From Anthracocystis setariae (lineage: Eukaryota; Basidiomycota; Ustilaginomycetes; Ustilaginales; Ustilaginaceae), in assembly GCA_928724745.1 (NCBI GenBank), contig CAKMXJ010000020.1, positions 1 through 64,000 of the forward strand: a stretch of 64,000 nucleotides of DNA, in the 5' to 3' direction. The translations under genes were made by a program, and so were the position numbers. How positions within the stretch are numbered: position 1 is the stretch's first letter; each line of letters starts with the position of its first letter. The notes beneath the pieces were generated by a model. The model ran no database searches. It saw only the letters and a list, made by a program, of their open reading frames with translations, and had not been told where the DNA came from. Of the stretch, positions 5,519 through 52,922 are shown one piece after another.

Positions 5519-5520
5519 AT

Positions 5521-6180
5521 ACCGAGGGAATTAATTCATTCGGAATGCAGCCCGAGGCAATCGGTGAGATCGGAAATTGTATCGAGAGGATCGGTGAGAA
5601 CCCAAAAATTAAAAAATTGCGCCCGAGGGAATCGGAAAGATCGGGATTTTTCTAATCGCGCCCGAGGCAATTCAATTGATCGGGATTTTCAAAGCTGCGC
5701 TCGAGGGGGTCGGAATGACTGAATTGATCACGGGAAGAGAGGTCACGCACGGAAATCATACCGAGGGAATTAATTCATTCGGAATGCAGCCCGAGGCAAT
5801 CGGTGAGATTCGAAAAATTAAAAAATTGCGCCCGAGGGGATCGGAAAGATCGGGATTTTTCAAATCGCGCCCGAGGCAATTCAATTGATCGGGATTTTCA
5901 AAGCTGCGCCCGAGGGGGTCGGAATGACTGAATTGATCACGGGAAGAGAGGTCACGCACGAAAATCATACCGAGGGAATTAATTCATTCGGAATGCAGCC
6001 CGAGGCAATCGGTGAGATCGGAAATTGTATCGAGAGGATCGGTGAGATCGGAAAAATTAAAAAATTGCGCCCGAGGGGATCAGAAAGATCGGGATTTTTC
6101 AAATCGCGCCCGAGAGGATCGGAATGATTACATGATCACGGAAAGTAAAGGTCACACACGGAATTTTTTCTAAGTCACTC
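5521..6180. repeat. CCGAG-rich low-complexity tandem region, left edge of module A
   Basis: Imperfect repeats of roughly 200-230 bp (around 5523, 5760 and 5970) are built from CCCGAGG, TCGGGA and ATCGGTGAGATCGG. A similar patchwork covers 7190-7800, with about 60-bp periods of alternating GATCCCGAGG and AAGATCGGAAATTC. Reading frames across it only translate the repeat. I see no gene here. Confidence 0.8.
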
Positions 6181-6226
6181 GGGCACACACAGAAAATTCA
6201 AAGGGAAAAATTTTTGATTCGGATTT

Positions 6227-7029
6227 TTAGTCGTCCTCGTCGGAAAGCTCGGATTCCGACTCGGACTCCTCGGGCTCCTCGGGCTGCTCGGGAAGCTCCA
6301 TTTCCACCACGGGATACTCGGGAAGCCTCTTGCAGGCATCGGATTCCAGCTGGTGAACACCGAGAATACCGTTGTACTTCTTGATCTCGATGTTCACATC
6401 CCGAGCCAGTCTGGCAACAACCCGAAGCCGGTTGATGAGCTCGGGACGCAGCGTGTTCACGTACTCCTTTCCGTGCTCGGGATCCACGAAAGCCAAGTCG
6501 AAACGAGTACTCACAGGGGTCAGGAATTTTCGTTTCTTGCTCGGGCTGCTTTCCGAGGCACCCGAGGCTTTCGGACAGCTTCGGGGACATCGGAATCTTC
6601 GGGTTGGCATCGAGCCACGCTTGGCAGCGTTTCCGAAGCTCGGGATCTTCGGAAAGGAGACCTTGGGAAATCCGAGGGTCGGGCGACACGGGAAGCCACT
6701 CGGACTCGGGTTTTCCCTCGTTCTTGTGCTTCAGGCGGTCCAAGTAGATGTCGCGGAGGAGGAGACCGTTCTCGGTCTCAATGTTGAATCCAGGCACTTC
6801 GGGAAAAAAAAAAAAAAAGCTCGGTCAGTACGGGATACACGGAATGAGCTCGGACTGTGAAAGAAGACTTGTACTTACTGCGCATTGAGTGATTGCATCG
6901 GGAATTCCCTTCCGAGCACTTTTGACACTTTTCCGAGGTGTCGGAGGTGAGGATGCACTCAAGCTTGTCCTTGAGGCATCGGAAACACTTGTGAGTGACG
7001 ACGGGCATTACAGGAGGATCGGAAAACAA
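6227..7029 (-). CDS. Zn-cluster (Zn2Cys6-like) protein of module A, spliced, with a probable frameshift
   Basis: Exon 1 (7029-6879, start at 7029 or 7008) encodes two half-clusters, CFRCLKDKLEC and CQKCSEGNSRC, each C-x2-C-x6-C. A GTAAGT donor at 6878, a CTGAC branch-like site and an AG acceptor at 6797 define an 82-nt intron; splicing rebuilds an ATG codon and stays in frame with exon 2 (NIETENGLLLRD...). Around 6560-6610 the sensible frame switches to one ending in an acidic tail (ESESELSDEDD) at 6227, so there is either a frameshift or an unrecognised second intron. The double C-x2-C-x(6-10)-C layout recurs in the module C protein and in the antisense genes of E1/E2, and the sequence after the cluster is weakly similar to E1/E2. 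A DNA-binding role is inferred from Zn2Cys6 factors; no target is proven. The coding DNA is itself full of CTCGG/CCGAG. Confidence 0.6.
6797..6878 (-). other. Intron of the module A Zn-cluster gene
   Basis: Donor GTAAGTACAAG, internal TACTGAC and acceptor CCCGAAG; 82 nt. Removing it joins the cysteine cluster to the downstream frame without a stop. Confidence 0.7.
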
Positions 7030-7938
7030 AAAAGAGGAGGGTCGGAAAGCTCGGTAAGTGACGGAAAGGTCGGAAAATGAGGGTCGGAATCGAAGAACAC
7101 GTTGGCAGTGAGAAGTAGGAAGGAAAGAAGTCAGAGTAACAGTTGAAAAAAATGTACCCCGAGCTAAGATCCGAATTCCGACCGAAAAGCTTCCCGAGGT
7201 TGAAAAAGTGCTTCCCGAGGTTAATGAAGTGCTTCCCGTGTTTCTCGAGTATCTCGGGAACTCGGAAAATAAAAACCCGCGCCCGAATATCTCGGTGAGA
7301 TCATAAAAAATAAAATATCGATTCCGAGGGGATCGGGGAGATCGGAAATTCGAAAACTGATCCCGAGAAAATCGAAGAGTTCGGAATTTTGAAAATTAAT
7401 CCCGAGGTGGATCGATAAGATCGGAAATTTCGACACTGATCCCGAGAGGATCGGGGAGTTCGGAAATTCGAAAATTGATCCCGAGGCTAATCGGTAAGAT
7501 CGGAAATTCCAAAATTGATCTCGAGGTGTATCGGTAAGATCGGAATAATTAAAATTGATCCCGAGGGGATCGGGGAGTTCGGAAATTCGAAAATTGATCC
7601 CGAGGTTGATCGGTAAGATCGGAAATTCCAAATTTGATCTCGAGGTGTATCGGTAAGATTGGAATAATTAAAATTGATCCCGAGGGGTTCGGGGAGTTCG
7701 GAAATTCGAAAATCGATCCCGAGGTGGATTGGTAAGGTCGGAAACACGGAAAATATCCTCAGAATGCTCGGAAAGCTCGAACAGCATCGGGATAGCTCGG
7801 GAAGCTCGGGAAGCTCGGAAAGCTCGGAAAAAAAGACGGCTCCCGCGAGGCTCAGAGACCCAACCCTCAGTGCTCAACCAAGCTAGTCATTCCGAGGCAC
7901 CGACCCAACCATGTTCCCCCGAAGGAAGGGCATCCTGT

Positions 7939-9831
7939 CTAAGGGCATGACCACCATGATTCCGAATTTACCAAGATCCACGGGATAGTTTCCGTGGCTG
8001 AGCAGATCCCGAGGTATGCCAGTGTCTCACTGTGATTCAACCGAGCTCCGCAGGTGTTGCACCGAAGCATCCACCTCTGCTTCCCGCCTACCGAGTGATA
8101 CCGAGTGTCTCGGTTCACATTCCGGCAGTCCCGACACGGAAAATACAACCGAATGTGATTCCAAATTTCCCGAGGATCGACCGACCTCGGAATGATCACC
8201 CGTACCCGTCCCGAGGGGTTGGCTGTGTTTGTCAAAGTGACCGAGGCTCCCGTGGGCTTCCGAAGCCACCAAGCATATGCATTGTTCCACCGAGTGAGTG
8301 CCCGATAGCCAGGGTTCCACCCGAGGCTGTTGAGAGCATCTGCTGTGATGCGCCGAGCTAATTCCGTGGTTTCCGAGGTGTTTCTTGCATGTAGCACCGA
8401 GTGTCCCGAGGCAGCAGCATGCATTTCCCGAGCATTCCGAAGCATTTCCGAGACTCGTACTGTATAGAGTCGGAGCTGAAGGCCTCGGGACCACGGTCGC
8501 TCGGCATGCATATAAGTCGGAAGCGAAAGGTACGGGATGCCTTGGATTGACTTCACAGCCTCGGAAAGGGTGGCACCCCAAACCGAGACCTCCATCCGAA
8601 GCCCCCCAAGCATCTCGGGAGGCACGGAAGCCAGATCTTCCACCAACCGACGCACCGAGGTCAGTCTTTTCCGAACTGTTTTCATGCTCCGAGGTTCCGA
8701 CCTTGCCATCTTGCTGTTGAATGCCTTGAGAGCATGAACTAGCCTCGGGTAGATCTTCAGCTGCATTCCGTACCCCTCGGGATGCCTGAGCTGCATGTCT
8801 ACTCCTCCGAAGCCCCTCCCGAGGGGGGTCAGCATCGGGAAGCTTCGGTTTGGCTTGTTCGGGGTTCGGAATGCGACCATCCATATGTCTGCACTGTCAT
8901 AGCTGACCCCGAGGTCCCATCGGTTTGTTCCCGAGAGCGGGTGCTCGGGATTGGCTGGTTCCGTGTACACTCCCGAGAGTGCAAGCTTCATTCCGTACGC
9001 CTGGATGCGCACCGAGTCACATCCGACCTTCCCGAGTGCTTGAATGAGCATTCCGATGGTTACCGTGGGGCAACCCGCGGAAAATGCGATTCCGAACTGG
9101 TTTGGTTGTATACTGAGGTGCTGCTGCAGAGCCCGAACCATCGGAAACTTGAACCGAGGCTCAATCTTCAGGTACCCGACCCCTTGGGCCAAGTACACCC
9201 AGTCTCAGTACATTCCGTGGTCTCGGATGATTGGGTACGGGGCTCGGGATACCAACCGAACCAATGTGATGCTTCTTCCGTGGATCCGAGCCAGGTCCGA
9301 GGGGTATACCGTGATATTCCAAGCATCAACATCCTCGGGACCATCCTTCCCGAGCTTGTCCAAGGTCGGGATTTCGGCACCAGGCTCGGTAAGTGGATTA
9401 GATGCATCGGGTAGGTCGGGTGCTGGTAGAGCTTTGGTCACCACCTCTTCATCACCTTCCGTCCACTCGGGATGCTCGGGATGCTCGGGATGCTCGAGAT
9501 GCTCGGGATGCTCGGCAACCTCCATGGCCTCCTCTTCATTCTCTTCGGGATGGTCGGAATAGTCGGTGTCATACGGATTGTCTGGTGGCTCGGGGATAGG
9601 CTCCTCGGGTGGGGTCGGTAACCTCGGAAATTCGGTGTTGGGAATCAGCACAACAACCGAGGGCTCGGTGGGCTCGGGTGATTCGGAGGGGACATTCCGT
9701 GGGTCGGAACGTTTTTTCGGAGGCTTGCGCTTCTTCGGGGGCCTTTGGGGTTTGGTGACAACAAGCTTTGGGATGTTTGAGCTTACCTTGACTCGGGCTT
9801 TGAATCGGGGACTTTTCCGTAGCTTTGGCAT
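7939..9831 (-). pseudogene. P1: YGMK-family protein, one in-frame stop, no OTU domain
   Basis: Starts at 9831 with a basic then acidic low-complexity N-terminus (HPEHPEHPE repeats). The family core begins at VDAWNITVYP. An in-frame TGA at 9207-9205 (codon 209) is followed without frame change by another 421 codons, which align fully with P2, P3 and P4: YGMK, PEHPL, GRGFGGV, KIYPRLVHALK, GGLRMEVSV, ALNSLGWNPG, AWW. A C4 zinc-ribbon-like element (CRDC...CNTC) lies near the end. The protein then stops at 7939 without the OTU domain seen in P2/P3. Core function unknown. The intact downstream frame suggests a recent single mutation, readthrough, or a base error. Confidence in family membership is high; confidence that it is dead is moderate. 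Confidence 0.85.
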
Positions 9832-9932
9832 GATCGGGAGGCTCGGGAGGCTCGGGATGTTCGGAATAAGGGGGTCAGTAACCTCGGAATGGATGGTTCC
9901 GTTAGAGTTAGGGTTGAAATGAAATGGGTCTG

Positions 9933-9942
9933 TATTTATATG
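9933..9942 (-). promoter_or_regulatory. Probable TATA box of P1
   Basis: TATAAATA on the minus strand about 100 bp upstream of the P1 ATG. A second TATATA-like site lies further upstream at about 10375. Confidence 0.4.
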
Positions 9943-10019
9943 TTTTTGCCTCTGTGTGAAATCCGAGTCGGACGCATTGCCGAGGCAACACCGTGTTGTC
10001 CCGTGCTTCCCGAGGTGCT

Positions 10020-10300
10020 ACTGTGGTCAGATCAAGCTACCCTAACCCCCCGTGCCTCCCGTGCCTGCCCGTGGAATGTCCGAAATTTCCAAATTGAGCC
10101 CTGGCTTCCGAGCACATTCCCGTGCTCAGGCCAAGCTACCCGTGCCTCCCGTGCCTGTCCGTGGAATTTCCGAAATTTCCAAATTGAGCCCTGGCTTCCG
10201 AGCAAACTCCCGTGCTCAGGCCAAGCTACCCGTGCCTCCCGTGCCTGCCTGTGGAATTTCCGAAATTTCGAAATTGGACCCTGGATACGGAACGCGGTTC
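10020..10300. repeat. 90-bp tandem repeat upstream of P1
   Basis: Three units, in phase at 10051, 10141 and 10231, built from CGTGCCTCCCGTGCC, CCGAAATTTCC and GAGCCCTGGCTTCCGAGC. They lie upstream of P1 and could carry promoter sites. Reading frames through them only translate the repeat. Confidence 0.85.
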
Positions 10301-10659
10301 CGTGCTTCCCGTGGCCATTCCCGTGCCTTCCGATCCTGCCGACCATTTCCGAGGGTCGGGAACCTTGGGGAAGTATATAGTCAACTCGACTCGTCACAGG
10401 TGGCCCCTAGCCATCTTCCTGTGCTCTGTTCTCTTTCCCATCCTTCCTCGCCAGACCATGCAGCAACACGAGCCAAGTCTTGATCGGTATGCTGGCAGTT
10501 CAAATGTTGCTATGCAACCCTAAGGCAAGCCATCACACAAGAGGACCGCCATAGAAGCTTCGTTGCCCGCTTCAAAAAAGCTCGCTTGCCAAGGCATGCA
10601 GCTACCATCCTCATCTTCCAAACACGCCGTTCTCAGTGCTCTTTGGCGACACCGGATGT

Positions 10660-10860
10660 GTTCGATCAACGTCATCGACACAATCCGACACCGCAAAAAA
10701 GCGAGGATTTTGGACATTCTTGAACATGTTAGATTGCGTTGAGTAGCATGTTCTGCATTGCAAAAAAAGCGGAAATTTCCTGACATTTCCAGATTTGTTA
10801 GATTGCGCCAATTAACACAATCTGTCATTGCAAAAAAGCGAAAAAAAATTTCCGACACGG
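10660..10860. repeat. GCAAAAAAGCG / TTAGATT repeat block
   Basis: Three imperfect copies of a motif with GTTAGATT, an ACACAATCT-type counterpart and then TTGCAAAAAAGCG. The same arrangement occurs in the alpha pieces of 1-5520 (for example 660-740). From 10860 to 11208 I see CCGAG-rich sequence, then CA-rich sequence without a convincing gene. Confidence 0.6.
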
Positions 10861-11208
10861 AAACTCGGAAAATCACCTCGGGGAGCTCGGAATGCGTCGG
10901 AATAGCTCGGGAAGCTCGGGAAGCTCGGGATCCTCCATGAGTCAAACTTGACTCCCCATCTGCGGCCCCTACGCTGCAGCTACTGCACCAAGCCTTGGCA
11001 TGCCAAAGTGTACCCATATAGTGCACACACTGACCCCAAGCAGCCCCCCAAAGTTTGGCTTGCTCACTGTCGCCACCAGCCAACATGTACGCGCAGACGT
11101 ACATTTACGTCAACTACGCCCGCTACGGTGCAGCCACCGTACCTGGTGTTTGTGTTCCCAAGTCTATCTATATACTGCACAAACTGACATAAAAAAAACC
11201 CCCAGGGT

Positions 11209-11392
11209 TATGCTTCCTCATCGACGCCCCCCAGCCAAAGTGTACGCGTGGACCTACGTTTACGTAATTTCGCAAAAAAAGTATGCAAACGATTTCGCCA
11301 GAATTTTCTGATCACAATCTACGAGAAAAGAGCTTTCCAACGGTACCAAATGATCACCATAACTCACACGGGGACCCATATGTAACCCTAAC
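11209..11392 (+). repeat. Eta-type right-end piece
   Basis: Repeated at 42903-43078 with few changes. Contains ATTTCGCAAAAAA and ends CATATGTAACCCTAACCC, running into telomere repeats. It closes module A on the right. Confidence 0.75.
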
Positions 11393-11824: not shown

Positions 11825-11837
11825 ACCCTAACCCTAA

Positions 11838-12960: not shown

Positions 12961-12963
12961 CCC

Positions 12964-13500: not shown

Positions 13501-13521
13501 CTTTCTAGATGGCTCCACGGT

Positions 13522-13578: not shown

Positions 13579-14103
13579 GCCCTTTCTCCCACCTATCTGG
13601 CTCTTTCCTTGTCGCTTTTTCAGTGTGTGTGCGTATCCCTGTGCCTCAAGAAGTCTGCAAGTGAGTTGACGTGTTCTAAGACGACTGGTGCTGTCTCTTG
13701 ACTTAGGTGACTAGTCCCTATACAGAGCTCCTGCCCGGCGTCTTGTCTTCTGTATTCTCTGCTAGACGTGGCTTGGCCAACCATATCTAGTGGAGATTGG
13801 AAGATCACCTCTGGTGGAACAAAAAAAGTCAACAAACCTCAAGAGCATCAAGCAATCCAAAGCAAAGGACCTCAAGACAACAAGACCACCTCAAGACCTT
13901 GTCAATAGCCTCTTCTTGACGTTGCACCAAGCCCATTATCATCCACAGGAACCCTCCTCAAGATCCCAGGACATCAAGACCTCAAGCATTGGACAAATCA
14001 AACGACCGAGCAACATCAACTCACTTTGCGCCAGACACAGCACAGACGCCCAAGCAATCCTCTCTTCTTTTCAGCACCTCTCTATTCCCTTGAGAGCGTC
14101 ACA

Positions 14104-16464
14104 ATGGACCATCCATTGCCCATTAGGATGGACCATCAAGTCACCAAAGGATTCATGGCTCCACGTGACCTTGATGCGTGGAACATCAGCCTGTACCCCA
14201 AAGACTTACTCCAGGTGTTCAAGCCAATGTCACCTGTTCAGTTGGTCAGTCACGCTCCCACCATCAAGGACCATCCCACATTCAAGGACTGGGTCAGCGC
14301 TGGCCAGTGCGTCTTCAACATCAAGATCCACCCAAAGTTCAAGATCCCGCTCCTCAACGTCCTCATCTCCGCCGACATCATCATGCTGGGCTCCGACTAT
14401 CCTGAAGCTCTGATCCGGGGCAATCAGGTGATCACCTGCAGTGTCTTCATCAACTGTCTGCAGAAGGCAGGTGTTGATACTGTCAGAGTCCAAGGCTACG
14501 GCATGAAGATGTGGGTCAACTACCCATATGACGGTCCAGACCTTGGCAACCCTCAACACCCAATGTCGGACCTCAATACCTTTGACCTGGCATGTAACTG
14601 GCCCAGCCAGAACATCTGGCTTGTGACCAACCGACATGACAGCATCCCTGGCCTCCAGCAGTATCCCATCCTCACACCGGTGGGCCAGGGCTTTGGCGGT
14701 GTCCAGATGCCGGTCCAGTACGGTGGTGAGACATATCGGGTGAAGATCTATCCACGCATCGTCCACCAGATCAAGGCACAGGCTGGCAACCACATGCTCA
14801 ACAAGCCAAAGTCAATCTACATCTGCAAGAAGCGGAGAGCAACCCTGCTTGGCCATCTGGCGCACATGGAGAAGCTATCAAGCCAACAGCTTGGTGGCAT
14901 ACGGGTTGAGGCTACGATCACCAGCCCAACCCTCAGCCTTGCTGTACGCAACATCACGGCTACTCCTGTGCTCAATATAACCCAGTACATGACGCCACGG
15001 GTTGAGGCAATGGAGCTGTACAAGATACGGAGCATCAAGATCAACAAGGAGGACTACATCAAGAACCTGCGTGATCTGCTGGCCAAAGCAGATGAGCAAC
15101 AGGTGTTCTCTGGCAATAACAGCCGCTCTCCTCACCCTGACTCCCAGCAGATCATCATTGACCTCTTCAATGCGCTGGGTTGGCATACTGGACGCTTTGA
15201 GCCAACACGCTGGGATCATCCAGCTGCCTGGTGGCTCCACTCTCAAGGAGAAGCACCAGTGATCACCAGCAATGATGTGGAGATGGAAACACAGGCTGAG
15301 GAGCGCCGTCAGCCATCCAAGGCTCTCCTGAAGCGCCGTCTGCGCACCATGGATGCTCTGCGTAGCTTCTTTGGCCAGATCAAAGGTCAGACACCGTGTC
15401 CCAAGTGTCAGAAGCCAGCGCCAGCACTGTACAACCAAGGTGGGCGCCGTCAGTTCCGCCTGCAGTGCACTGGCTGCAAGGCACGCCTCAATCAAGAGCA
15501 GGCTCGAGAGTACTTTGGCCAGCTGCTTGATCAAGGCCGTCTGACGGTAGACCTGGGTCCAGAGCCAGTGCCAGAGCCAGAGGCAGCAGCAATGGAGGCA
15601 GTCACTACAGAGGAGGAGGATGTCGACATGCCTGACCTTGGCAGCAACTCTGATTCCTCAGCTGACCAGGCTCCTGTCCATCCTCTGCATGGTCCACGCC
15701 GTCAGAGCAACCGTCTGCGTAGGCGTCTCTCTCCTGCAGTGGCAGCACCAACGGTGGAGCTGCACACGCATGGCACAGATGCAGTGGTGCTCCTCCCAGC
15801 AGCATTGCCAGCCCCTGCTGTGGTTAGGAGCAGCAGCGCAGAGACCAGCGCTAGCATTCAGGCCATCTTGGATGAGCTTGATGCAGAGCTGGTCTCCAGC
15901 CCAGACCGCAGATGCAGGGAGACACCCAACCCCTTTGTGGCTGAGCTGATGGTATCACCAGCAGTCACCCTGCCCTCCCGTCAGCCACTGCAGAGCAAGC
16001 CCAGCCTCCATGCTGTTGACAGAGTCACTGTACTGGCTGCTACGCTTCGCAACCTGTATGGTCTGAAGGTCAGCAACATCATTGGCAGGGATGGCAACTG
16101 CATGTTCAGGGCCATGGCATACCACCTGACAGGCAACCAAGACCAGCATATGATGGTCAGGACAAAAGCAATCCACTGGCTGCAGCGGAATCCTGACATC
16201 CTGCTGGTATTTGCGGCCCAGGGCGATGGGCATCTCTCCGCTGCCACATACCTGGCTAACATGGCCAAGCCAGGAACATGGGGTGACGAGATCATGCTCA
16301 TGGCCATTGCGCAGGCATTCAGCATCTCAATCATGGTCTACTCTGGCACAGACCCTCAGACCGGTGACAGCCATGGCACCATCTACCCTCACAATGCAGA
16401 GGGACCCCACTATGGCCTGTTTCACCTGGCCAAGTCCCAGCATTATGAGCTCCTGTTCCCCTGA
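14104..16464 (+). CDS. P2: YGMK-family protein with C4 zinc ribbon and OTU cysteine protease domain
   Basis: Intact 786-residue frame. I chose the ATG at 14104 (GTCACAATGG context) over an upstream in-frame ATG at 14026. The family core runs from LDAWNISLYP to about residue 390, with YGMK, GQGFGGV, KIYPRIVHQIK, GGIRVEATI, LFNALGWHTG and AWW. A C4 ribbon follows (C432, C435, C455, C458), then a low-complexity acidic/basic linker, then a C-terminal OTU domain with D663-G-N-C666 (catalytic Cys) and H780 in QHYELL. OTU proteases cleave ubiquitin-like conjugates or polyproteins; the substrate here is unknown. The core shared by P1-P4 is not a family I recognise. Codon and motif use is ordinary, unlike P1 and P3. 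Confidence 0.9.
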   Translation: MDHPLPIRMDHQVTKGFMAPRDLDAWNISLYPKDLLQVFKPMSPVQLVSHAPTIKDHPTFKDWVSAGQCVFNIKIHPKFKIPLLNVLISADIIMLGSDYPEALIRGNQVITCSVFINCLQKAGVDTVRVQGYGMKMWVNYPYDGPDLGNPQHPMSDLNTFDLACNWPSQNIWLVTNRHDSIPGLQQYPILTPVGQGFGGVQMPVQYGGETYRVKIYPRIVHQIKAQAGNHMLNKPKSIYICKKRRATLLGHLAHMEKLSSQQLGGIRVEATITSPTLSLAVRNITATPVLNITQYMTPRVEAMELYKIRSIKINKEDYIKNLRDLLAKADEQQVFSGNNSRSPHPDSQQIIIDLFNALGWHTGRFEPTRWDHPAAWWLHSQGEAPVITSNDVEMETQAEERRQPSKALLKRRLRTMDALRSFFGQIKGQTPCPKCQKPAPALYNQGGRRQFRLQCTGCKARLNQEQAREYFGQLLDQGRLTVDLGPEPVPEPEAAAMEAVTTEEEDVDMPDLGSNSDSSADQAPVHPLHGPRRQSNRLRRRLSPAVAAPTVELHTHGTDAVVLLPAALPAPAVVRSSSAETSASIQAILDELDAELVSSPDRRCRETPNPFVAELMVSPAVTLPSRQPLQSKPSLHAVDRVTVLAATLRNLYGLKVSNIIGRDGNCMFRAMAYHLTGNQDQHMMVRTKAIHWLQRNPDILLVFAAQGDGHLSAATYLANMAKPGTWGDEIMLMAIAQAFSISIMVYSGTDPQTGDSHGTIYPHNAEGPHYGLFHLAKSQHYELLFP

Positions 16465-22292: not shown

Positions 22293-24293
22293 ATGCCTTG
22301 GGTTTACCAGGAGCAGGAACTAGGGGATACTGACTTCCCTGACCCTATAAGGGTACCTTATCCCGAGACACCGGAGGATCTAGATGGGTTTAGCTTCACT
22401 TGCAACCCCTGGAACCTACTTTCAACCTTTGGCAAGTACAGTATTGTTACCTTAACCTCCCATGCACCCCAAATCAGGGATGTCAAGTACTATGAAGGTT
22501 GGGTCTACCTAGGTACAGGTCCCTGTGTACTGAAGATCCACCCTAGGTACAAGGTACCTCTCCTGCAGGAACTGAACTACACCCTCACTCTGCAGGCGTC
22601 AAACTACCCTACAACCATGATTGAGGGTAGTCAGCATGTTACCATGTATGACCTTGTAGATAGGTTGGAGTCGGTTGGCTGTACTTCAGTCCGGGTTCAA
22701 AGCTATGGAATGAAGTTCAACCTAGATGATGTACCGGTTGAACATCTGGTCAACCTAGGTGAACCCGAGCATCCCCTAGCTGCAACCAACTTCTATGACA
22801 TTGGAAGGAACTATGCCCAGGTTCATGTGGTGTTGGTCAAGGCTCCCAACCTACCTTCAGGTACTTGTACCACCTATCCCATGCTTACAAGGTTGGGTGA
22901 TGGTCATGGTTCCCTCAGTATGACTACCATGTACCGGGGTGATACCTACAAGATCAAGGTTTACCCCCTCCTTGTACATGCCATGAAGGCCACTTCAGGC
23001 AAGTTCAACAACTACAACCCTAGGTCCATCCATACTTGCCGCCTCAAGGAAACCAACTTGTTGAACCGTCAAGATAGGTTGGCCAAGTTCCCAGCAGTTA
23101 AACTTGGTGGACTCCGGGTTGAAGTTACTGTCCATGCCAGTACAGTGCAGGAAGCTAGGTTCAAGATCTATGTTAGTGGGTTCCTGGAACTCAAGGAGTG
23201 GTTGAACCCCACTTTACCCCACATGGCCAACTGCCAACTTAGCCTCAAGTTCATCAAACGTAGGGACTACCTCAACAACTTCAACCAACTGCTCACCAAA
23301 GCTCAGGAACTTAGGGTCTTCCAGGGTAGAGCTATCAAGAAACCAGGTAAGGTACGTACCTATATCATACAAGACCTGTTCAATGCCCTAGGTTGGAACT
23401 CAGGTATACGTACTTCAAGGTGGGAGAAGGACCTTGGACCCTGGTGGAACTGGACTCCAAGTACAGTTGACATCGATGAAGTGATGGAAACTGTGGTTGA
23501 CCCCCAGTCCAGGTTCAAGGATCCCCTCTTGGAGGAGGTTCACCTGCAGGAGATCCTAAGGTGTGTCAAGATCTACAAGAGGGGAAGTAAGTACAAGGCA
23601 TATGTACATGGGGACAACGGCAGGAACCAACCTTTTGGGTCCAGTACATCCAAGTTGGAGTTGGGTAAACAGGTCTTTGCCAAGTACAAGTACCAATGGA
23701 CCAAGCATTGCTACCTTGTAGATGACCCTTTCCCTACTTCAACCAAGTCAAGGGACCTTGACTCCAGTTTGGAGAAGTACAACATCCTGTCAACCCACGT
23801 TCTTGGACCTTTGGAGATCTTCTCTGAACTTCAAGGAAGTAAGAACTACCGTGTAACTGCCGGGTACATACAAGGAGATGGGAACTGCCAGTTCAGAGCT
23901 ATTGCCAAGTTGGTTTATGGTACCCAGAAGTACCATGGCAAGGTGCGTGAAGAGGTGGTCAAGTACCTTGAACACCACCAACCCATGGTAGAAGCTCTCC
24001 TTGTGGCCACCAATGGTACTCCCCATGCCTTCAACCCACCTTGTACTGTGGCACAGTACCTTGAAGGTATGTACACCCTAGGTACATGGGGAGATGACGC
24101 TACCTTGTCAGCTGCTGTCAACTACTATGGACTGAAGTTGGTGGTAGTTAATGTGGACTGTACCCACTTTGAAGTGCGGGCACAGCATGGAACCACAGAT
24201 AAAGGTCAGTGGCATGCACTTTACTACACTGGCAACCACTATGAACTGGTGTACAAGGTACCTTACCAGCCAGTTCCCTCCCCTTCACCCTAG
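22293..24293 (+). CDS. P3: YGMK-family protein with OTU cysteine protease domain
   Basis: 666 residues. I chose the ATG at 22293 (TACCATGCC) because the 87 upstream in-frame codons are T/H/L low-complexity leader. It shares the family core with P2 (YGMK, PEHPL, KVYPLLVHAMK, GGLRVEVTV, LFNALGWNSG). The zinc-ribbon position is present but its cysteines are lost. The OTU domain is intact: D529-G-N-C532, GTWGDDATLSAAV, and H649 in NHYELV. The DNA is unusual: by hand count about 36 GTAC in 2.0 kb against about 8 expected, with many CCTAGG and AGGTTCAA, and the same motifs fill the flanking non-coding DNA. P2 has only a normal GTAC number. Confidence 0.9.
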   Translation: MPWVYQEQELGDTDFPDPIRVPYPETPEDLDGFSFTCNPWNLLSTFGKYSIVTLTSHAPQIRDVKYYEGWVYLGTGPCVLKIHPRYKVPLLQELNYTLTLQASNYPTTMIEGSQHVTMYDLVDRLESVGCTSVRVQSYGMKFNLDDVPVEHLVNLGEPEHPLAATNFYDIGRNYAQVHVVLVKAPNLPSGTCTTYPMLTRLGDGHGSLSMTTMYRGDTYKIKVYPLLVHAMKATSGKFNNYNPRSIHTCRLKETNLLNRQDRLAKFPAVKLGGLRVEVTVHASTVQEARFKIYVSGFLELKEWLNPTLPHMANCQLSLKFIKRRDYLNNFNQLLTKAQELRVFQGRAIKKPGKVRTYIIQDLFNALGWNSGIRTSRWEKDLGPWWNWTPSTVDIDEVMETVVDPQSRFKDPLLEEVHLQEILRCVKIYKRGSKYKAYVHGDNGRNQPFGSSTSKLELGKQVFAKYKYQWTKHCYLVDDPFPTSTKSRDLDSSLEKYNILSTHVLGPLEIFSELQGSKNYRVTAGYIQGDGNCQFRAIAKLVYGTQKYHGKVREEVVKYLEHHQPMVEALLVATNGTPHAFNPPCTVAQYLEGMYTLGTWGDDATLSAAVNYYGLKLVVVNVDCTHFEVRAQHGTTDKGQWHALYYTGNHYELVYKVPYQPVPSPSP

Positions 24294-24974
24294 TTCAACT
24301 GTACACAGACCCTGCTTGTAGATACCTTGGCCCCAGTTGTAGATAGTTTCCAGGACCTCATCTGAGGTTTTTCATCCCCACTACATCCAGTAGATGGGGG
24401 TTTTCCTCACAATGAAGTACCTTTGTCCATGTTAAACGTACCTGACCAAGCTTGACATGCAGTTGATGTGGGGTGTGGGTACCTTTGACCTTGGGTCTAC
24501 TGACGTCAACACCATACCATAACCATGGTTGTACCAGGGTTGAAGTACCTTGAGAGTACTTTACCGCGCTTTACGGTACTTCCGGCAGTCAATGGCACTT
24601 CACCCTAGGTTCAACCTAGGTTGGCCCTAGGTTCACCCTAAGTACATACCCCAGGTCAACCCCCTGCTGAGACCAACTTTGAACCGCCATATCTCCGCAA
24701 CCACACACTTTCCAGGCTAGCCACGCTATGTACACACTCCCTACACACTCCTCTACATGTCTACTTAAGGCAGCAAGCCATTTGGAGGTGATCAAAAACT
24801 TTTTTTTCTTCCCCGGGTGATCAGCCCACCACACCTTCAACGTCAAATATCTCGGAATTGGCGTTAATCGGTAACGCCAAAGTTTGCATACACCCTCCGT
24901 TTGGGTCCCTCTACAAGTTTCATTAGTACAGATTTCACGGTGTGAACGGCCTCCGTGGGAATCACCTTGTAACC
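24294..24974 (+). repeat. P3 3' region ending in an alpha piece
   Basis: After the stop comes a GAGGTTTTTCATCC-type tract shared with 17690-17760, then from 24660 an alpha piece: CAACTTTGAACC, GGTGATCAAAAAC, CCCCGGGTGATCA, the hairpin GGCGTTAATCGGTAACGCC (about 24857-24875), TTTCATTAGTACAGATTTC, and the end CACCTTGTAACC. It links an intact gene to the same right end found gene-free in 1-5520. Confidence 0.75.
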
Positions 24975-27842: not shown

Positions 27843-28201
27843 TGTTAAGCTCCTGGGGTCTTAGAACCTCGGAACGTGGCGGTGCGTCTGTGTCGAGGCC
27901 AGGGGCGTGGTACCGGGTGTTGCTCCCGGGATCGTTGCCAAGATAGCGGAGCGGGCGAGCGGGAGATCGGGAGAAGGTCTGATATTTCCACCTACTAGAG
28001 TGAGTAAGCTAAAATACAATCGACGTCCTGTCGTGAGTGTGGCGGGATCATTTCGTGAGATTATGTGGCCACCCGGATATCCCCCGGAAGATGCCGCAGT
28101 CTGTCCCGATCCTCGATCCGGGACTTCATCGGGGGGAACTACCCCCGTCAATGTTAATACTGAAACCAAACACTAACTCTCCCGATATCCCAATCATAAC
28201 A
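27843..28201 (-). repeat. E1 left LTR (3' LTR in element sense)
   Basis: 359 bp, begins TGTTAAGC and ends CATAACA on the + strand. Confidence 0.95.
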
Positions 28202-28402
28202 TTACCCCCCCCCCCCGGGAAGGCCGACGTCCTCGTGGCCTATATGGTTCTCCCGGGTCTTAAGCTCCACCCGGGAGGTTCCCGGACCCACCACGCGCGG
28301 TCCGCGCTGAGAACAAAGGAGTCAGGAACGGACGCTTTGTGTGCCTGGCGGGGCGTGCGCGGCGGAGCGTGCGCAGCGGGCTGAGCGCTAACTTTTCTTT
28401 TG

Positions 28403-28410
28403 TATATAAG
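28403..28410 (+). promoter_or_regulatory. TATA box of the E1 antisense gene
   Basis: TATATAAG, 82 bp before the ATG at 28492. It is conserved in E2 at 45645-45652 with the same following GACTCG, although the surroundings have diverged. Confidence 0.7.
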
Positions 28411-28491
28411 ACTCGTCTCGCTCCCGTTCCTGGTTCCTTCTTTCCCCCCACAACCCCTCGTTCTGCAACTCGGAACATATTCTTTGGCAAC

Positions 28492-30413
28492 ATGCGTAGT
28501 AAGTATAGTTCCGGGACCCGGGCTACGAGAGTGAGGCCGGTGACTGACATCTTTGCCTTCCCGTTTAATACAGCAACACGATCCTCCACCCGGCGAGGTG
28601 GCCCCGACGGTGGGGTAGCGGGAGGTTCTGCCCCCGCCCCCGAACAACTGGCTGTGGACGAGTCCCGGGGTGCTAATGCCCCGGAGGTTGTGGACGAGTC
28701 CCGGGGCGTGAGTGCCCCGGAGGGTGTGGATGAGTCGGGCCACTATGTGGCCCAAGAGGGAGACGTAGTCTCCCTGTACGTGGATGAGTCCCCCGTGCTC
28801 CCGCGCGGGGAAGCTGGCCCCGAATTGGTCCCGGGTGCCAGTGGTGTGGACGAGTCCCCGGTACAGGCTTCGGCCTCGTGCCGGGATGATGGGCAGCAGG
28901 CTCCCGGGCTCCCGGGCAGCGAAGCCAGCGGCGTGGTGGTTCCCTCCAGCGGGACCACCCCCGGGTCTTTGGTCGCGGCCACCCCGGCTCCCGGGGCAGG
29001 TGTACCGATCGGGGACCCTGGTAGGCTGGCGGCGCTTGTCCGGGAGGTTCGAGCACGGGGTACCCCTCCCGCTTCCGAGGGGTACGGGCATTGTTGGTCT
29101 TGCGCCAACAGCAAAAAGAAACCCCACCCGCAGTGCTCCCTGGGCTATGCGCACCGGGACGTCGGGGGTCCAGAGGACCCCCGGGACGGTCAGCATGCCG
29201 CGTGTGAGCGTTGCCACGACGCGGGGTATCCCTGCGACTGGCAGGGGCGCGTCCCGGACATCACGGGACGCCAGGAGGGCGGCTTCCTTATGGAAGCCTA
29301 TCTTGTCCTCCGGGCCCGGGGTCAACGTCCTAACCCCGGGATGCCCTTCACGTCGTTCTCCGCGGCGGACCTCCCGGAGTACCTGGCGGCCGAGTACGCC
29401 CCTGCGCGTGCTCGGTACGAGGCCCGTCGGCAGGCCAAGGCGGGGAGTCGTCCCCGGGCTCCCGAGTCTCCCGCTGGGGCGTCTTCCAGTGCTGGCGGCA
29501 GTGCCCCGGGTTCCCGGCCCCCTCGGGGTCAAAGGGGGTGGAAGCAAACCACCCTCATCCCCGATGCTCCCTTGGCCCTGCGCCAAGTTTGTCCCTTCGA
29601 TGCTCCGGGGGACCAACATATGGCCGGGGCCCGGGAGGCGGCATCCCACGCGGCGGGAGTGATCGCCGCGCTGGTACAGGTCCTTCGCCGGACCGCTGCC
29701 GTGGGGGCGGAGCGACGTCTCTCCTGGTCGTACCGGGACGAGAATATCCTCCGCTACGTGGAGGGGGTGAGTCATGCCTTCGGAGGCATCACTCAGGAGC
29801 TTGGCGTCCCGCCTCCTCCCCCGCCCCCGGTAGTGCCTCCCGCTGCTCCCGCCCCCGTCCCTGCTCCCGCTCCCGCGCCCCACTCGCGCGGCGGCGCCCC
29901 GAGGCGCAACGCCGAAGCTGGGCCGTCCCGGATCCGGGGGACCCCCCCTCCCCGGGATATGCCCCGGCGACCCCGGAGGTGGCGCGTGCTAAGAGGCAGC
30001 GCCCCGGGACGCCTACGCGGGAGCGAACTTCCCGTGCGAGTGGCTCCCGTTCCCAAACGGGAGGAAAGCGCCCTCCTCAGACGGGGGGGTAAGCGCCTCC
30101 CGGGGAGCTTCCAAACGGGCGGGAAGCGTCTCCCGGTGGGCGGACTTCGCCCTCCCTCTCCCGAACCCGGAGAGGCGTGCCCAGCGCCGCCGAGCTCAGG
30201 CGGTGGGTGCGGGACATGCGGGCCCCGATCCGTGCCCGCCGTCGGGAGAGCTCCCGGGAAGACTCCCGGGGTGAGTCCCGCGACGAGGAGTCCTCGGGGG
30301 CGGAGGACCGAAGCCGGGAGTCCGGGGAGGACTCCGACGAGGATGTGGTGATGGTGGACTCGGACGTATACGAGTCCCGTCCCCGCACCCCTCCACGTCG
30401 GGGGCATCGATAG
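28492..30413 (+). pseudogene. E1 antisense Zn-cluster gene, frame broken
   Basis: Same gene as the intact E2 copy (45733-47664). ATGCGTA is followed by a GTAAGT donor at 28499 and a CAG acceptor at 28573 (75 nt, a multiple of 3). It encodes CWSCANSKKK...C and CERCHDAGYPC, an Ala/Pro-rich middle with a proline run, QTGGKRLP-type basic repeats and an acidic DEDVVMVDSD tail. Compared with E2, the frame is lost in a C-rich run near 29941-29957 and again at a G7 run near 30083-30089, so the tail is read in another frame (to 30413). These may be true mutations or homopolymer base-calling errors. Confidence 0.75.
28499..28573 (+). other. Intron of the E1 antisense gene
   Basis: GTAAGTATAG donor, AATACAG acceptor, 75 nt. 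Its length is a multiple of three, so both spliced and unspliced forms keep the frame. Confidence 0.55.
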
Positions 30414-30499
30414 GCCCCCGGGAACTGTGTCATGTCGTGTGTCCGGGATCATTAGGATCCCGGGAATAAAATTGTGTTTGCCGTGAATTCCCGCGTGTT

Positions 30500-30560
30500 G
30501 AGGGTGTGTGTGTGTGTGTGTGAGTGAGGATGAGAGTGTGGGTGTGTGTGTGCGTGTGTC
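30500..30560 (+). repeat. GT microsatellite in E1
   Basis: (GT)n runs with interruptions just after the antisense gene. E2 has a shorter run at about 47755-47768. Confidence 0.9.
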
Positions 30561-30764
30561 GATGAGCCTTCTGTCCCCTGGGCGTGGTGACCGGGTCGAG
30601 GGGACACCCGGAGCACACTGAGTTTGGCGGGACGCCTGACTCCCGACAACTGTCCCGCGTCCCGGATCGGGCTGGTGCGTCCTCCGTTCCCTGGCTGCTG
30701 CTTCCCAAGGTGACCGCGCCGGCCGCTCCCGCGCTAGAGTCCGAGGGGCGGGGGCAATCGGGAG

Positions 30765-33700
30765 TCAGCAGTCCCGGGAGCTAGCTTGGCTCCCGGACTG
30801 CCGCTGATGGAATTCCTGGAGCAACTCCTGGCTATTCTCTAAGTGAGCCGCTGGCTCCCACGTAGGTTGGGTGTAGCCTGCCCACTTCACCCGGTACTGC
30901 CGCCCCCGACGTGTCTCTCGGGAAGCCAAAATATCTTCCACTTCGAAGTCCTGTCGGTCGTCCTCCAGGCGCCGGGACGTCGGGGCGTGCTCGGAGGGTC
31001 GGGTGTCCGGGGAGTGCGGTTCCAGGAGGCTGACGTGAAACACCGGGTGGATTTTCCAGGCGGGCGGGAGGTCCAACTTGTAGGCCCGGGGGCCCACCGC
31101 CTTGAGAACCCGGAACGGCCCCGCTAACGGGTTCCCTAACTTCCGGGACGGTCGATCTTGACGGAGATGTCGGGTGCGGAGTAGCACCATGTCACCCCCG
31201 GAAAAAGACCGGTCCATCCTGGAGCGGTTTGCGTATTTGGACATCAGGGTGGCAGCGTGGTTAATGTTGGCCCGGCAGTGTTGGAGGAGTCCCCGGAAAG
31301 CCGAATCGGAGGGCGGTATACCGCCCGGGGAAAGGGCTGGTGACCCGGGGAGGGTTTTCGGGGTGAATCCAAACAGGGGTAGGGTGGCCGGTAGCCCGGT
31401 TGTAGCTGACACTCTATTGTTTAGCGTAAGTTGGGCGTACGGTAGCCAGGACGCCCAGTCGTCCTGCTGGTAGTTGACATAGAATCGGAGGAAAACCTCT
31501 AGATTTTGATTAACACGCTCGGTTTGGCCATCTGTTTGCGGGTGATAGGCTGTGGAGAGGGCCGGAGTGGTCCCGAGGGCTGTTAGGATATCCTTCCACA
31601 GGGACGCTACAAACGTGCGCCCCGGTCTGACACGATGGTGTCCGGGAGTCCAAAATAGGCAAAGACGCGGGAGAACAGCATGTGGGCGAGATCTTTGGCC
31701 GTATCGGACTTCCGGGCCGGGAGGAAAAGGGAGTACTTGGTGAGACGATCGACGACGACGAGGATGGAGTCGAACGTGAGGCCACCGACCCGGGAAACCG
31801 GGAGACCCTCAATATGGTCCATGGTGATGGTCCCGAACGGCCGGGTCGGGGCGTCGAGCGGGAGCAGCAGTCCGTAAGGCTTATGCCGGGGCGCTTTAGC
31901 GCGCTTACAGGCTCCACAGGTCCGAACGTACTCCGTGACATCGTGCTTGAAATTGGGCCAGGAGTGGTGGCGGCGGACCAGTTCCAGGGTAGCGGCCACT
32001 CCCGGGTGTCCCGCCGTCGGGTGGTCGTGATAGCGCTCTAGGATTCGTTTCACTTCGGCGGGGGACGCGGGACTGGTCGGGAGAGGGTCGGGGCCCGGGA
32101 CTACGTCCGATATCCGGTGCGCAGCCGGTGTTCGTTGTTCCGCCAGCCCGAGATCTTGGAACAGGTAAGGGGGTAGGAGGACCGCGACGTTAGAGGGGTC
32201 ATGCTGATGATTGGTGGTGGTGGTGTTGGGATGACCATCGGAGCGCCGGGACAGAGCGTCTGGGCGGGTTGCCTGGGTCCCGGGTCGGTACGTAATGGTA
32301 AACGTGAACTCCCCGAGAGCCATGCTCCACCGGGCCTGCCGCCTGTTAAGTTGCCGTTTCGTTTGGAAATATTGGAGGGCCTGGTGGTCGGTGAGCACCT
32401 CAAACGGCTCCTGGAGCCCGTGGAGGTAATGTCTCCATTCTTGCAACGCGTCTACGATCGCTAGGAGTTCTTTATCGTGGATTTCGTAATTACGCTCTGC
32501 GGGTTGCATCTTTCGCGACCAATAGGCTACCGGATGGAGCCGGTGGGTCGAGGGCCGGGGTACAGCCTCGGGGTCGGTCCCCGGGGCGGCGTACCACTGT
32601 GAGAGTACGGCAGCCACGACGTAATCGCTAGCGTCTGTTTCGATCACTGTGAGCCGGGAGGGATCGAAGTGTTGTAGGATTGGGGCGGTAGTGAAGGCTT
32701 CTTTGAGTCGGATGAAAGCCTCCCGCTCCTGGGGCTCCAGGTTGATCTTACCGGAGGCCTTGTTCTTGAGCCGATCGGTGAGCGGGGACGCCACCCGGGA
32801 GTAGTGCCGGATGAAGCGGCGATAGAAGTTGGCAAACCCTAAGAAGACCTGGATGTCCCGGATGGTGACTGGTTCTGGCCAGGACGTCACCGCGTCCACC
32901 TTACCGGGGTCCATGCTGATCCCCCCGGGACTGACCCGGTACCCGAGGAACTCGACAGACGAGGTCCCGAAGTCACATTTTTCCGGGGCACAGTACAGCT
33001 TGTGGTCTCGGAGGCGTCTCAACACCTCCCGGACGTGAGAGGTGTGTTCTGCGGGGTCAACCGAGAATATGAGGATATCATCCAAATACACTATTACGGT
33101 GACATCCAAGAGGTCGTGGAGAACGTGGTTCATGAGACGCTGGAAAGTGGACGGGGCGTTACATAGTCCAAAGGGCATAACTAAGTATTCGTAGCTCCCG
33201 TACCTGGTCCGGAAGGCTGTTTTCCATTCGTCGCCCTCCGCGATGCGGACAAGATTGTAGGCCCCCTTAAGATCCAATTTTGTGTAAATCTTAGCCCGGG
33301 AGAGGCAGTCCAGGTGCTCGGAGATCAGGGGAATCGGATACTTGTCCTTGACGGTGATGCTGTTGAGGGCCCGGTAGTCGACGCAAAGGCGGAGTTTGCC
33401 ATCTTTCTTCGGGACGAAGATGATAGGGGCGGCTGCCGGGCTCTTGGACGGCCGGATGAACCCTATCTCAAGCATCTTATCAAGATAGGTCTTAAGTTCC
33501 TCCATTTCTCTCCCGGAGAGGGAGTATAGTGCGCCATGTGGGATCTGGGCTCCGGGGAGGAGGTTAATCTGGTGGTCGTGAGGCCGGCGAGGCGGGAGCA
33601 CGTCGGCGTTAACCTCATTGAACACGTCCGAGAAGTCCCGGTACTCTTCCGGGAGGCCTGGGGCCCGGGGTGGCCCCAAAGAGCTGGGGTGGATAGCGAA

Positions 33701-35642
33701 ACAATCCTCCCCCCGGGGCGGGTTCCTGGCTATTGGTAAGCAGCGGAGGGCCGGTAGGCTGAACAGAGGTGGTGGCGTAACCCCCTCCTCCCGGGAGCGG
33801 GAAGTGCATGGTTTGGGTTTGATAATTGAGTACCGGTTCGGTCTTCTCAATCCAATCCATTCCTAGGATGATATCATAATCGGAGATGCGGGGTGCGACA
33901 TAGAATGGATGATTCGGGGTAACCGGGACTCCCGCGAGGCTGACCGTTGCCCGGAGGGTGTGGGTGATGTCCTCTGAATGGGAATCGAAGGTTGCCGTGC
34001 GCACCGGGGCCCGGAGGGCCTCCGGGACGCCCACCTCCCGATCCAGCATGGCCCTGTCCACAAAAGACGCGGTGGCGCCCCCGTCAATGAGGGCCCGGGC
34101 ACGGCACCCGGCCAGCGTGACCCAGCACTCATACACCGGGATGCTGGGGTGTCGGTGTACTCGGATGGTGTCCCCGCTGATCACCGGCTCGGCGGGAGGG
34201 ATGAGGGCCGCTACATGGCTCTTGAGATCCACGAGTCCCGGGTCCTGGCGAAGTTGGGCGATGTTGGCCCTCACCGGGAGGGACTGAGGGTGGTCGGTGG
34301 ACTCGGGGTCCCACTCCGGGTCATAGGAAAGGACGGAGCGGTCATCGGGTAGGTCATCCTCGCCGTTGATAGGTGTGGCTTCGTCCTCCCCGGACCACCG
34401 GGTCTCCGGGACGTCCGGGACCAGGGGTTGGACCAAAAGCTCGCCGTTGGCGGGGTCTAGGATAGCCACGTTGGCCCGGAGGGGCCGAGTCTGGGCGGCC
34501 TTTGGGCAGTCCCGGACTGCGTGAGGGCCCCCGCACCCGTAGCAGAGGTTGTTTTCCCGATGGTACTTGCGGACCTCGTCGGGAAGCTCCCGGCTGGCCA
34601 GCCCGGGGCGGGGCGGATCACCCCGCTTGTTGGGGGTCTCCCGACGGGGTACCGTCGGATTGGGTGGGCGACCGCCCCGAAGTTCGGGGCGGCGTTCCGG
34701 GCGACCCGGGGTGTCCGAGTGACCCGGGGTCACCAAGCCGATTTCGTACATTCGCTGCTCTGTTCGGATAGCGGTGTCAATGTACTCGTGCAGGTCGTAG
34801 GTCTCCACGTGGAGGAGCTTCTGCCGGAGGCTCTCCCGGAGGCTAAGCTGGAAGGTCGTCAGCAATTGCTGATTGTCGGTAGCGTTAGCCTTAGTGGCTA
34901 GGGCCAAGAACTCGGCAGCGTGAGCGCTAACGCTTCCCGATTGACGCAGCCGCTGGAGCTTGACCCGGGCGGTGTGTCCCGGGTTAGGATCCCCGTAGGT
35001 GCGGCGAAGATCGGCGCAGAACGTGTCCCATTTGTGGAACAGGTTGATTTCCGGGCGGGCCTGGCGCAGGTTGCGGAGCCGCTCCCGGGGTACACCCGAG
35101 ATATGGGCTAGGGCCCATAAGACACGGCGGGGGTCGGAGGGGAAGCGCGCCGGGTTAAGATCGAAATGGAGGGCGCATTGTTCGATGAAAGCCTCCAGCT
35201 CGTCGCGCTTACCGTCCCAGGAGGGGGCGGCAACGCTAACTTCCGGGGTCTTGACCCGGGAGGAATAGTCCTCCGTAAGGTCCCAGTTGGGAGCCACGAC
35301 GGGAGCTCCCGGGGGCACCGGCTGGGGATTGGACCCGCGCTCGCCCATAAGGCGAGTAGCGCGGGCGTACCTTTCCTCTGAGGTCTCGCGTTCCAGAGAG
35401 AGGTCTCCCGGGTGCTCCATGGGCGGGAGGCCCGGTTCTGCCGGGGTCGGGACGGCGGGGTCGGGGGCTCGGCCGCTGTTGAGCAGCCGGATCTGGTCGG
35501 CCAATCCTCCGACCAGGGCGGTTAGGCTCTGCACGGCGGCGACTAGTCCCTGGACGGGGTCGACTCCCGAATCGGGGGTAGGGCTGCCCGAACCCGTAAC
35601 AGAGTCCGGGGAGCCGGGACGATGCTGGCTACGGGTTTGCAT
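30765..35642 (-). pseudogene. E1 gag-pol, broken by two single-base indels
   Basis: gag with a CCHC-like knuckle, protease, RT, RNase H, integrase and chromodomain, all colinear with E2. Relative to E2 there is one extra base in a C/G run at about 33708-33718, which splits gag (stop at 33615) from protease-RT (from 33850), and one missing C at about 31620-31623 inside the integrase, which splits the DDE core. Both indels lie in homopolymers and the rest is over 90% alike by eye, so a sequencing artefact is a real possibility. Confidence 0.9.
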
Positions 35643-35678
35643 GGTAGCTGGAGTCTCCGCGTTGACGGCAACGGGGAG

Positions 35679-35688
35679 GTCGATTGTA
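35679..35688 (-). promoter_or_regulatory. Probable self-priming primer-binding site of E1
   Basis: One base inside the 5' LTR, the minus strand reads TACAATCGAC. It is perfectly complementary to GTCGATTGTA inside the LTR (35871-35862, minus strand). No tRNA-type PBS (TGG-start) follows the LTR. Tf1/sushi chromoviruses prime with their own RNA 5' end in this way. Confidence 0.5.
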
Positions 35689-35689
35689 A

Positions 35690-36048
35690 TGTTAAGCTCC
35701 TGGGGTCTTAGAACCTCGGAACGTGGCGGTGCGTCTGTGTCGAGGCCAGGGGCGTGGTACCGGGTGTTGCTCCCGGGATCGTTGCCAAGATAGCGGAGCG
35801 GGCGAGCGGGAGATCGGGAGAAGGTCTGATATTTCCACCTACTAGAGTGAGTAAGCTAAAATACAATCGACGTCCTGTCGTGAGTGTGGCGGGATCATTT
35901 CGTGAGATTATGTGGCCACCCGGATATCCCCCGGAAGATGCCGCAGTCTGTCCCGATCCTCGATCCGGGACTTCATCGGGGGGAACTACCCCCGTCAATG
36001 TTAATACTGAAACCAAACACTAACTCTCCCGATATCCCAATCATAACA
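35690..36048 (-). repeat. E1 right LTR (5' LTR in element sense)
   Basis: 359 bp, TGTTAAGC to CATAACA, followed by the CTATG duplication. Confidence 0.95.
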
Positions 36049-52875: not shown

Positions 52876-52922
52876 GGTAGCTGGAGTCTCCGCGTTGATG
52901 GCAACGGGGAGGTCGATTGTAA

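Follow-up and report, generated by a model that had tools for sequence, protein, structure and literature searches.

Element-specific short DNA words in chromosome-end modules and gypsy retrotransposons of Anthracocystis setariae

Introduction

DNA uptake sequences of Neisseria and Pasteurellaceae are short words spread across the whole replicon, genes included, and they mark the genome for uptake. In the fungus Anthracocystis setariae we find short words that are also written through genes, but whereas uptake sequences mark a whole genome, here a separate word belongs to each mobile element within one genome. The DNA under study is a stretch of 64,000 nucleotides at a chromosome end (positions 1-64000 of contig C19, hereafter the window) in an assembly of 21.47 Mb and 36 contigs; it holds the genes P1, P2, P3 and P4, which are paralogues by sequence comparison, and two gypsy retrotransposons, E1 and E2. 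We give even chances to the reading that an element's word is the target of the element's own DNA-binding protein, most likely a cysteine-cluster protein called Z, and is a self-label that would keep the element readable.

By analogy, the nearest described system known to us is VANC/VANDAL of Arabidopsis. In the available portion of PMC5735166, VANC21 motifs are mainly non-coding and form same-orientation arrays of high density. The likeness, as far as the accessible parts of PMC5735166 and PMC10398659 describe that system, lies in dense, family-specific short motifs with other motifs in sister families, which we find here as well, and in an element-encoded motif reader, whose counterpart here would be Z, a putative reader known from sequence alone. 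Unlike VANDAL motifs, which these partial sources place mainly in non-coding tandem repeats of one orientation, the fungal words occur within coding DNA, in module A at no lower density than in the spacers, in all frames and on either strand, though neighbouring words in A tend to share a strand locally; they are also found in gypsy retrotransposons, and they bend the residue order of some elements.

Fungal DNA transposons carrying a TET/JBP dioxygenase (described in the available part of PMC12730594) resemble the present case in that a dioxygenase-like gene stands beside several P4 copies, but none of 13 dioxygenase places lies in an examined saturated module. Fungal subtelomeric RecQ helicase families, in the accessible part of PMC7473861, are likewise multicopy genes at chromosome ends, whereas the P proteins carry zinc-ribbon or OTU parts and a different core. 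In literature searches at the level of titles and the starts of abstracts, no description of such words in smut fungi was recognised, and in the available text of PMC9603552, on smut retrotransposons, the terms 'motif' and 'subtelomer' do not occur.

Each Element Type Is Saturated With Its Own Word

Six saturated types were compared: module A in four copies (C5, C8, C15 and C19), its relative B from C11 (two copies), module C (copies from C19, C36, C23 and C27), its relative Px (two copies, C12 and C15), and the gypsy elements E (E1 and E2) and F. Word densities were tabulated per kb for these copies, except C23 and one of the two C27 copies of C, and the unsaturated comparison loci were P2, P4, L022 and L023. 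The features of the window that matter here are:

5517..10935: module A, rich in CCGAG (also CCCGAG and TCGGAA), directly after a TTAGGG-type telomere tract at 5470-5516; word-free gap at 10381-10840
7942..9831, minus strand: P1 gene, with 53 CCGAG; in-frame TGA at 9205-9207 in the window copy
7320-7744 and 9466-9515: tandem arrays in module A
14026..16461, plus strand: P2, unsaturated paralogue with an OTU cysteine-protease domain
21301..24700: body of module C, with GTAC at 15.6, GGTTGAA at 3.8 and CCTAGG at 3.2 per kb
22293..24293, plus strand: P3 gene, with an OTU domain
39179..42022, minus strand: P4, unsaturated paralogue, with C2H2-like fingers near the N terminus (read by eye)

The table of words by elements is close to diagonal. 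CCGAG stands at 20-24 per kb in the four A copies, at 13 in B, and at 0.3-4.2 in every other row. Alongside it, B has CCGAA at 17-18 per kb; C has GTAC at 13-16; Px combines AACTTC at 7.4 with GTAC at 12; and P2, P4, L022 and L023 are low for all words (GTAC at most 3.4, CCGAG at most 2.2 per kb). A tree pairs A and B, and likewise C and Px, and sister modules therefore carry related but different words. The words are not a genome-wide habit, since CCCGAG occurs 10,170 times in 21.47 Mb, or 0.47 per kb (reversed-word control, 8,884), as against 70 times, or about 13 per kb, in 5517-10950. A sequence-only reading of this DNA, made before the present analysis, had held the words to be specific to their modules, and these densities bear it out.

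Over the whole of module A (5517-10935) we counted 126 CCGAG/CTCGG, where an order-1 background predicts 18.1 (maximum 30) and an order-2 background 37.8 (maximum 51; 100 simulations each). The spread of the words over genes and spacers alike was also correctly seen: P1 has 28.0 words per kb, exon 2 of the Z gene 30.2 and the spacers 16.4 to 23.6, the gap at 10381-10840 apart, and in the P1 homologues of C5 and C11 the word lies on both strands and in all three frames. For 8041-8400 a hand count had given 13 words with less than one expected; the strong excess over the order-1 model stands, although the count is 12 and the expectation 1.2. The order-2 expectation for this piece is as high as 6.7 (maximum 13 in 100) because a model trained on those 360 bases absorbs the word.

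A rival possibility is that tandem-repeat slippage seeded the words, which then spread locally. The commonest spacings in module A (9, 39 and 30 bp), the 90 adjacent words that share a strand where 62.9 are expected, and the two arrays listed above would all fit; but only one array is listed inside P1 and none inside the E2 gag-pol, and the words occupy all frames and both strands. In the P1 core (7942-9204), with the 9-bp array excluded, 34 CCGAG remain against 15.4 in shuffles (maximum 22 of 300), and a pure tandem-repeat origin is ruled out for that core. Slippage as the general source is thus highly unlikely.

Words Exceed Codon and Dinucleotide Choice in A, B and E

Coding regions were compared with strict shuffles, in which amino acids, codon usage and dinucleotides are all kept. 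The 53 CCGAG of P1 (7942-9831) stand against 25.3 ± 3.4, with a maximum of 34 in 200 shuffles, confirming that the saturation includes the coding region, and the C5 copy of A has 64 (maximum 40). CCGAA in B reaches 36 (maximum 24). In Px, AACTTC reaches 18 (maximum 16), and GTAC merely equals its maximum of 30. P2, said earlier to lack the words, indeed has 0 CCGAG, 1 CCCGG and 8 GTAC, none of which exceeds its strict shuffles. The words proposed for module C fared less evenly in P3: CCTAGG, at 6 against 1.9, lies above the maximum of 5 in 200 shuffles but equals the maximum of 6 in a repeat with 100, and AGGTTCAA, at 2 against 1.9, is not in excess and was dropped. GGTTGAA, at 9 against 3.9 (maximum 6), is a clearer excess than GTAC.

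The gypsy elements give the same picture with different words. In the window they comprise:

27913..35965: CCCGG-rich stretch with gypsy E1, 24.6 per kb
28339..30351, plus strand: E1 cysteine-cluster open reading frame (ORF), 670 aa, on the strand opposite to gag/pol
30765..35642, minus strand: E1 gag and pol, in several open pieces
45167..55114: CCCGG-rich stretch with gypsy E2, 24.7 per kb over 45201-53100
45733..47664, plus strand: E2 cysteine-cluster ORF, 643 aa from ATG
47989..52875, minus strand: E2 gag-pol, fully open

The E2 gag-pol contains 113 CCCGG where strict shuffles give 81.8 (maximum 97 of 200), and the E2 zinc ORF 62 where they give 43.5 (maximum 54 of 100); E2 is thus packed with its word beyond composition, as had been claimed. 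F was found through a weak resemblance to the E zinc ORF (32-38% at 14 places; 32% for F, the one examined), and not through its word; picked by that resemblance alone, it proved to have a word of its own, CGCGC. The GC content of E and F is alike (0.64-0.65), yet CGCGC stands at 19.3 per kb in F and 2.8 in E, and CCCGG at 4.6 in F and 24.6 in E. Their pol proteins are 71% identical over 861 residues. At the 55 positions where both could encode CCCGG, the word stands in E at 30 and in F at 9; at the 40 where both could encode CGCGC, it stands in E at 3 and in F at 17.

These comparisons bear on the explanation that codon preference, base composition or a foreign origin with other codon usage produced the words. 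Dinucleotide-keeping shuffles do absorb much of the GTAC count of P3 and of the CGCGC count of F; but the explanation fails in A, B and E, spacers are dense too, and E and F differ in word despite equal GC and similar pols. We regard it as extremely unlikely overall. The strict shuffles reject an artefact of this kind for A, B and E, while for F and for the GTAC of P3 the rejection is incomplete, and the earlier claim that codon preference and composition are insufficient holds to the same extent.

The Words Leave an Imprint on Protein Sequence

Saturated genes use a large share of the positions at which their proteins allow the word: 64/122 for CCGAG in A, 36/92 for CCGAA in B, 36/64 for GTAC in C, 18/39 for AACTTC in Px and 113/240 for CCCGG in E2. 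P2, L022, L023 and P4 use CCGAG at 0-4 of 41-78 such positions. When residues were permuted within each protein and the positions able to carry its own word were counted, the real order proved favourable in A (CCGAG, z 6.9), B (CCGAA, 7.3), Px (AACTTC, 5.1) and E2 (CCCGG, 5.2). The signal was weak in C (GTAC 1.5, AACTTC 2.7), and F showed no lean (z -0.6 and 1.0); in the controls P2, P4, L022, L023 and MFS, z ranged from -2.4 to 1.5 across six words. An imprint of the own word on amino-acid order is therefore present in four of the six element types (A, B, Px and E).

All 512 five-letter words were also ranked from each protein alone. CCGAA came first in B (6.8) and CCCGG in E2 (5.6); CGGAA, CCGAG and CCGAA led in the A protein of C5, and in the 421-residue A core of C19 CTGAA was first and CCGAA second. 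Px gave AACTT (4.3), AGTTC (3.8) and GGTAC (3.4). The top word of C reached just 3.7, and F pol reached 4.0 for a word other than its own, where the maxima of 15 comparison proteins (P2, P4, L022, L023, MFS, the dioxygenase and P0001-P0009) were 2.4 to 3.9. P3 has annotated relatives that are 64% identical in Ustilago trichophora and 44% identical in Pseudozyma flocculosa. Among the P3 relatives P0010-P0015, AACTT, AGTTC or ACTTG stood in the top six (z 3.1-5.3), with AAATT first in P0011; CCGAA was the top word of P0017 (4.5), not of its relative P0016. The signals of P0010-P0017 may, however, stem from common descent with P3, Px or A.

These results lead to a broader proposal, which we consider possible though on balance doubtful. 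Unrelated elements (the P modules and gypsy) would have adopted private DNA dialects, each paired with its own reader; selection on word density would dictate synonymous codons and, in several elements, also residue order, and proteins would evolve to spell the address of their own gene. On this view the imprint seen from protein alone would point to dialects in the relatives from other smut fungi as well.

Cysteine-Cluster ORFs Are Candidate Readers

A cysteine-cluster ORF occurs in one or more copies of every saturated type (A, B, C, Px, E and F). In the window, the Z genes of the P modules are:

6880..7008, minus strand: exon 1 of the Z gene of module A, CX2CX6CX9CX2CX6C, followed by a splice-like GTAAGT (read by eye)
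6201..6797, minus strand: exon 2 region of the same gene
20443..20799, minus strand: Z gene of module C, 119 aa, CX2CX8CX10CX2CX7C

Zn(2)-Cys(6) factors (PF00172) have the spacing CX2CX6CX5-12CX2CX6-8C and bind CGG triplets. The Z proteins of A and B share the Gal4-like spacing CX2CX6CX9CX2CX6C, which matches it; the small proteins of C and Px share the spacing listed for module C and deviate (X8, X10, X7); that of E is a looser cysteine pair in an ORF of 640-670 residues, and F has a 600-residue frame resembling it. CGG is contained in the words of A, B and E. Against the Pfam Zn_clus profile (cut-off 21 bits), A (12.5), B (17.9) and L052 (19.7) score below the cut-off, and C, Px, E1, E2, F and L051 give no match.

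Z adjoins the P gene in A, B, C and Px, though not in every copy: none was found beside the Px copy of C15 or the C copy of C23, and pieces of only 16 residues lie at C27 and C36:650929. Exon 1 of the A gene is identical at C5, C15 and C36, with a 14-residue piece at C8. Searches for the cysteine pattern within short flanks found none at the window copies of P2 and P4 (introns not considered) and, at the other unsaturated loci, just two hits, one to a repeat-like frame of L017 and one to a fragment of P4 in L040. At the chromosome end of the window, module A looks broken: P1 is interrupted by the in-frame stop, and within Z exon 2 the stretch similar to the C11 relative shifts reading frame (read by eye); open P1 frames are present in copies on other contigs.

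The P proteins, with their zinc ribbon and core, or a host factor might instead read the words, leaving Z a bystander. Both saturated and unsaturated elements speak against this, which we take to be distinctly unlikely. Searches of the genome with P2 and P4 gave no P match in E1, E2 or F, all of which are saturated, so some saturated elements lack P, while P2 and P4 are P proteins and yet unsaturated. Z was chosen as the candidate reader because Z-type ORFs are the item that the saturated types have in common, and a binding site of an element-encoded factor, as proposed earlier, is for the same reason a good reading of the words.

If the words are targets of Z, many weak sites across the whole element would let Z coat only its own kind. 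Such a coat could keep the element readable, for example by holding off silencing, as VANC does for VANDAL, and when Z diverges the word would diverge with it, giving related but different sister words such as CCGAG in A and CCGAA in B. We infer putative binding of Z to the word, an anti-silencing effect and selection on word density.

Several results weigh against this reading. Across the four close A copies, variation is 11.1% at words and 10.2% elsewhere, that is, without constraint on the words; the earlier suggestion that the word was selected or spread as a signal is supported in part, by element specificity and by the excess over shuffles in A, B and E, and not by constraint on single sites. 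P3 has exactly the 36 GTAC claimed for it (22293-24293), but over 22032-24290 the 39 GTAC are nearly reproduced by strict shuffles (32.0 ± 2.4, maximum 38 of 200), so most of the P3 excess is codon and dinucleotide choice, and GTAC is the weakest of the examples first put forward. F is only at the edge of its strict shuffles (43, maximum 42; 37, maximum 38; zinc ORF 33, maximum 37). L051 (C27:35800-38600), a Z-like remnant beside an E element, has no clear word. Finally, part or all of the word sharing between A and B is explicable by ancestry, because off-word codons also agree above independence (synonymous-codon agreement 0.447 against 0.358 off-word, 0.556 against 0.444 where codons touch words). 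The sharing itself amounts to 34 sites against 11.1 in shuffles, which are sparser (the density-scaled expectation is about 34). Among the 72 positions encodable in both, each writes 39 words and 33 are shared, where 21.1 are expected (p 1.4e-8); a second A copy shares 35 of 71 positions with B (23.7 expected). C and Px share 14 of 38 for GTAC (10.4 expected, p 0.025) and 3 of 11 for AACTTC (2.5 expected).

The lack of constraint on words in recent A copies is what one would expect if the words arose by molecular drive without function, with element-linked mutation, protection or gene conversion making or sparing the word, for example where bound sites are shielded from CpG decay. In keeping with this, P modules are CpG-poor off the word (139 of the 230 CpG of B lie in CCGAR, and the remainder has an observed/expected ratio of 0.30; P2 0.41, L023 0.25), and decayed-looking TGCCAAA is visible beside TGCCGAA. 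But the words of C and Px (GTAC, CCTAGG and AACTTC) are free of CpG, and neither E nor F is CpG-poor (ratio 0.91-1.08). The residue order of several elements is bent, which a neutral process must achieve against protein constraint, and drive still requires an element-specific reader. We judge drive unlikely. L051 has 6 TGCCAAA-type words against 1.5 and possibly represents a decayed CCGAA dialect; in L052 the excess is mild and confined to AAGTTG (16 against 4.3).

Should the words be self-labels read by the element's own protein, sequence-specific anti-silencing or self-recognition would extend from plant non-coding repeats to whole elements, coding DNA and fungal LTR retrotransposons, and a DNA-level signal would shape protein sequence. 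The matched pairs A/B, C/Px and E/F would then form a natural set for decoding which zinc-protein residues read which word, and the codon and protein evolution of such elements would not be readable as coding signal alone.

Other Features of the Window

The first 5.5 kb of the window are chromosome-end repeat DNA with TTAGGG-type tracts. Long tandem and mosaic blocks of chromosome-end repeats occupy 1-5460 and 24980-27440, and their joins are TTGTAACCCTAACC-like, an arrangement that looks like the addition of segments to telomere tracts. The window gave no matches with ARAGORN or, at the gathering threshold, with Rfam.

Searches of the genome with P2 and P4 found 62 and 60 matching stretches, respectively, which, on contigs of known length, mostly lie no more than about 30 kb from a contig end. 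The OTU cysteine protease (PF02338) of P2 and P3 is a profile match above cut-off with which the fold agrees. Fold searches with whole P models were dominated by this domain, and the core alone gave a weak lead to a rolling-circle initiator (Rep_trans, PF02486). This lead was unsupported by Foldseek or sequence: the Rep_trans profile has no match in the genome at E 10 and none in 21 A4 members, and the A4 profile matches no Rep chain of the PDB.

Two features lie close to P4:

42087..42616: 21-bp tandem array with GACCGTCTT, upstream of P4
37313..38578, plus strand: TET/JBP-like dioxygenase gene adjoining P4, with weak scores

P4 with its array resembles the VANDAL arrangement as the accessible sources describe it, unlike the six saturated types, which write their word through genes. 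The GACCGTCTT word is also present near 80-160 and 4481-4561, within the chromosome-end repeats. For the dioxygenase gene, the TET/JBP profile (PF12851) gives 13.7 bits, below the cut-off of 34.9, and the match to the Tet-like dioxygenase chain 5cg8 is weak (E 0.8). Such a gene adjoins several P4 copies (C7, C10, C14 and C22), and two further relatives, L047 (C15) and L048 (C26), are found with GGAACTACGGAACTAC-like repeated words.

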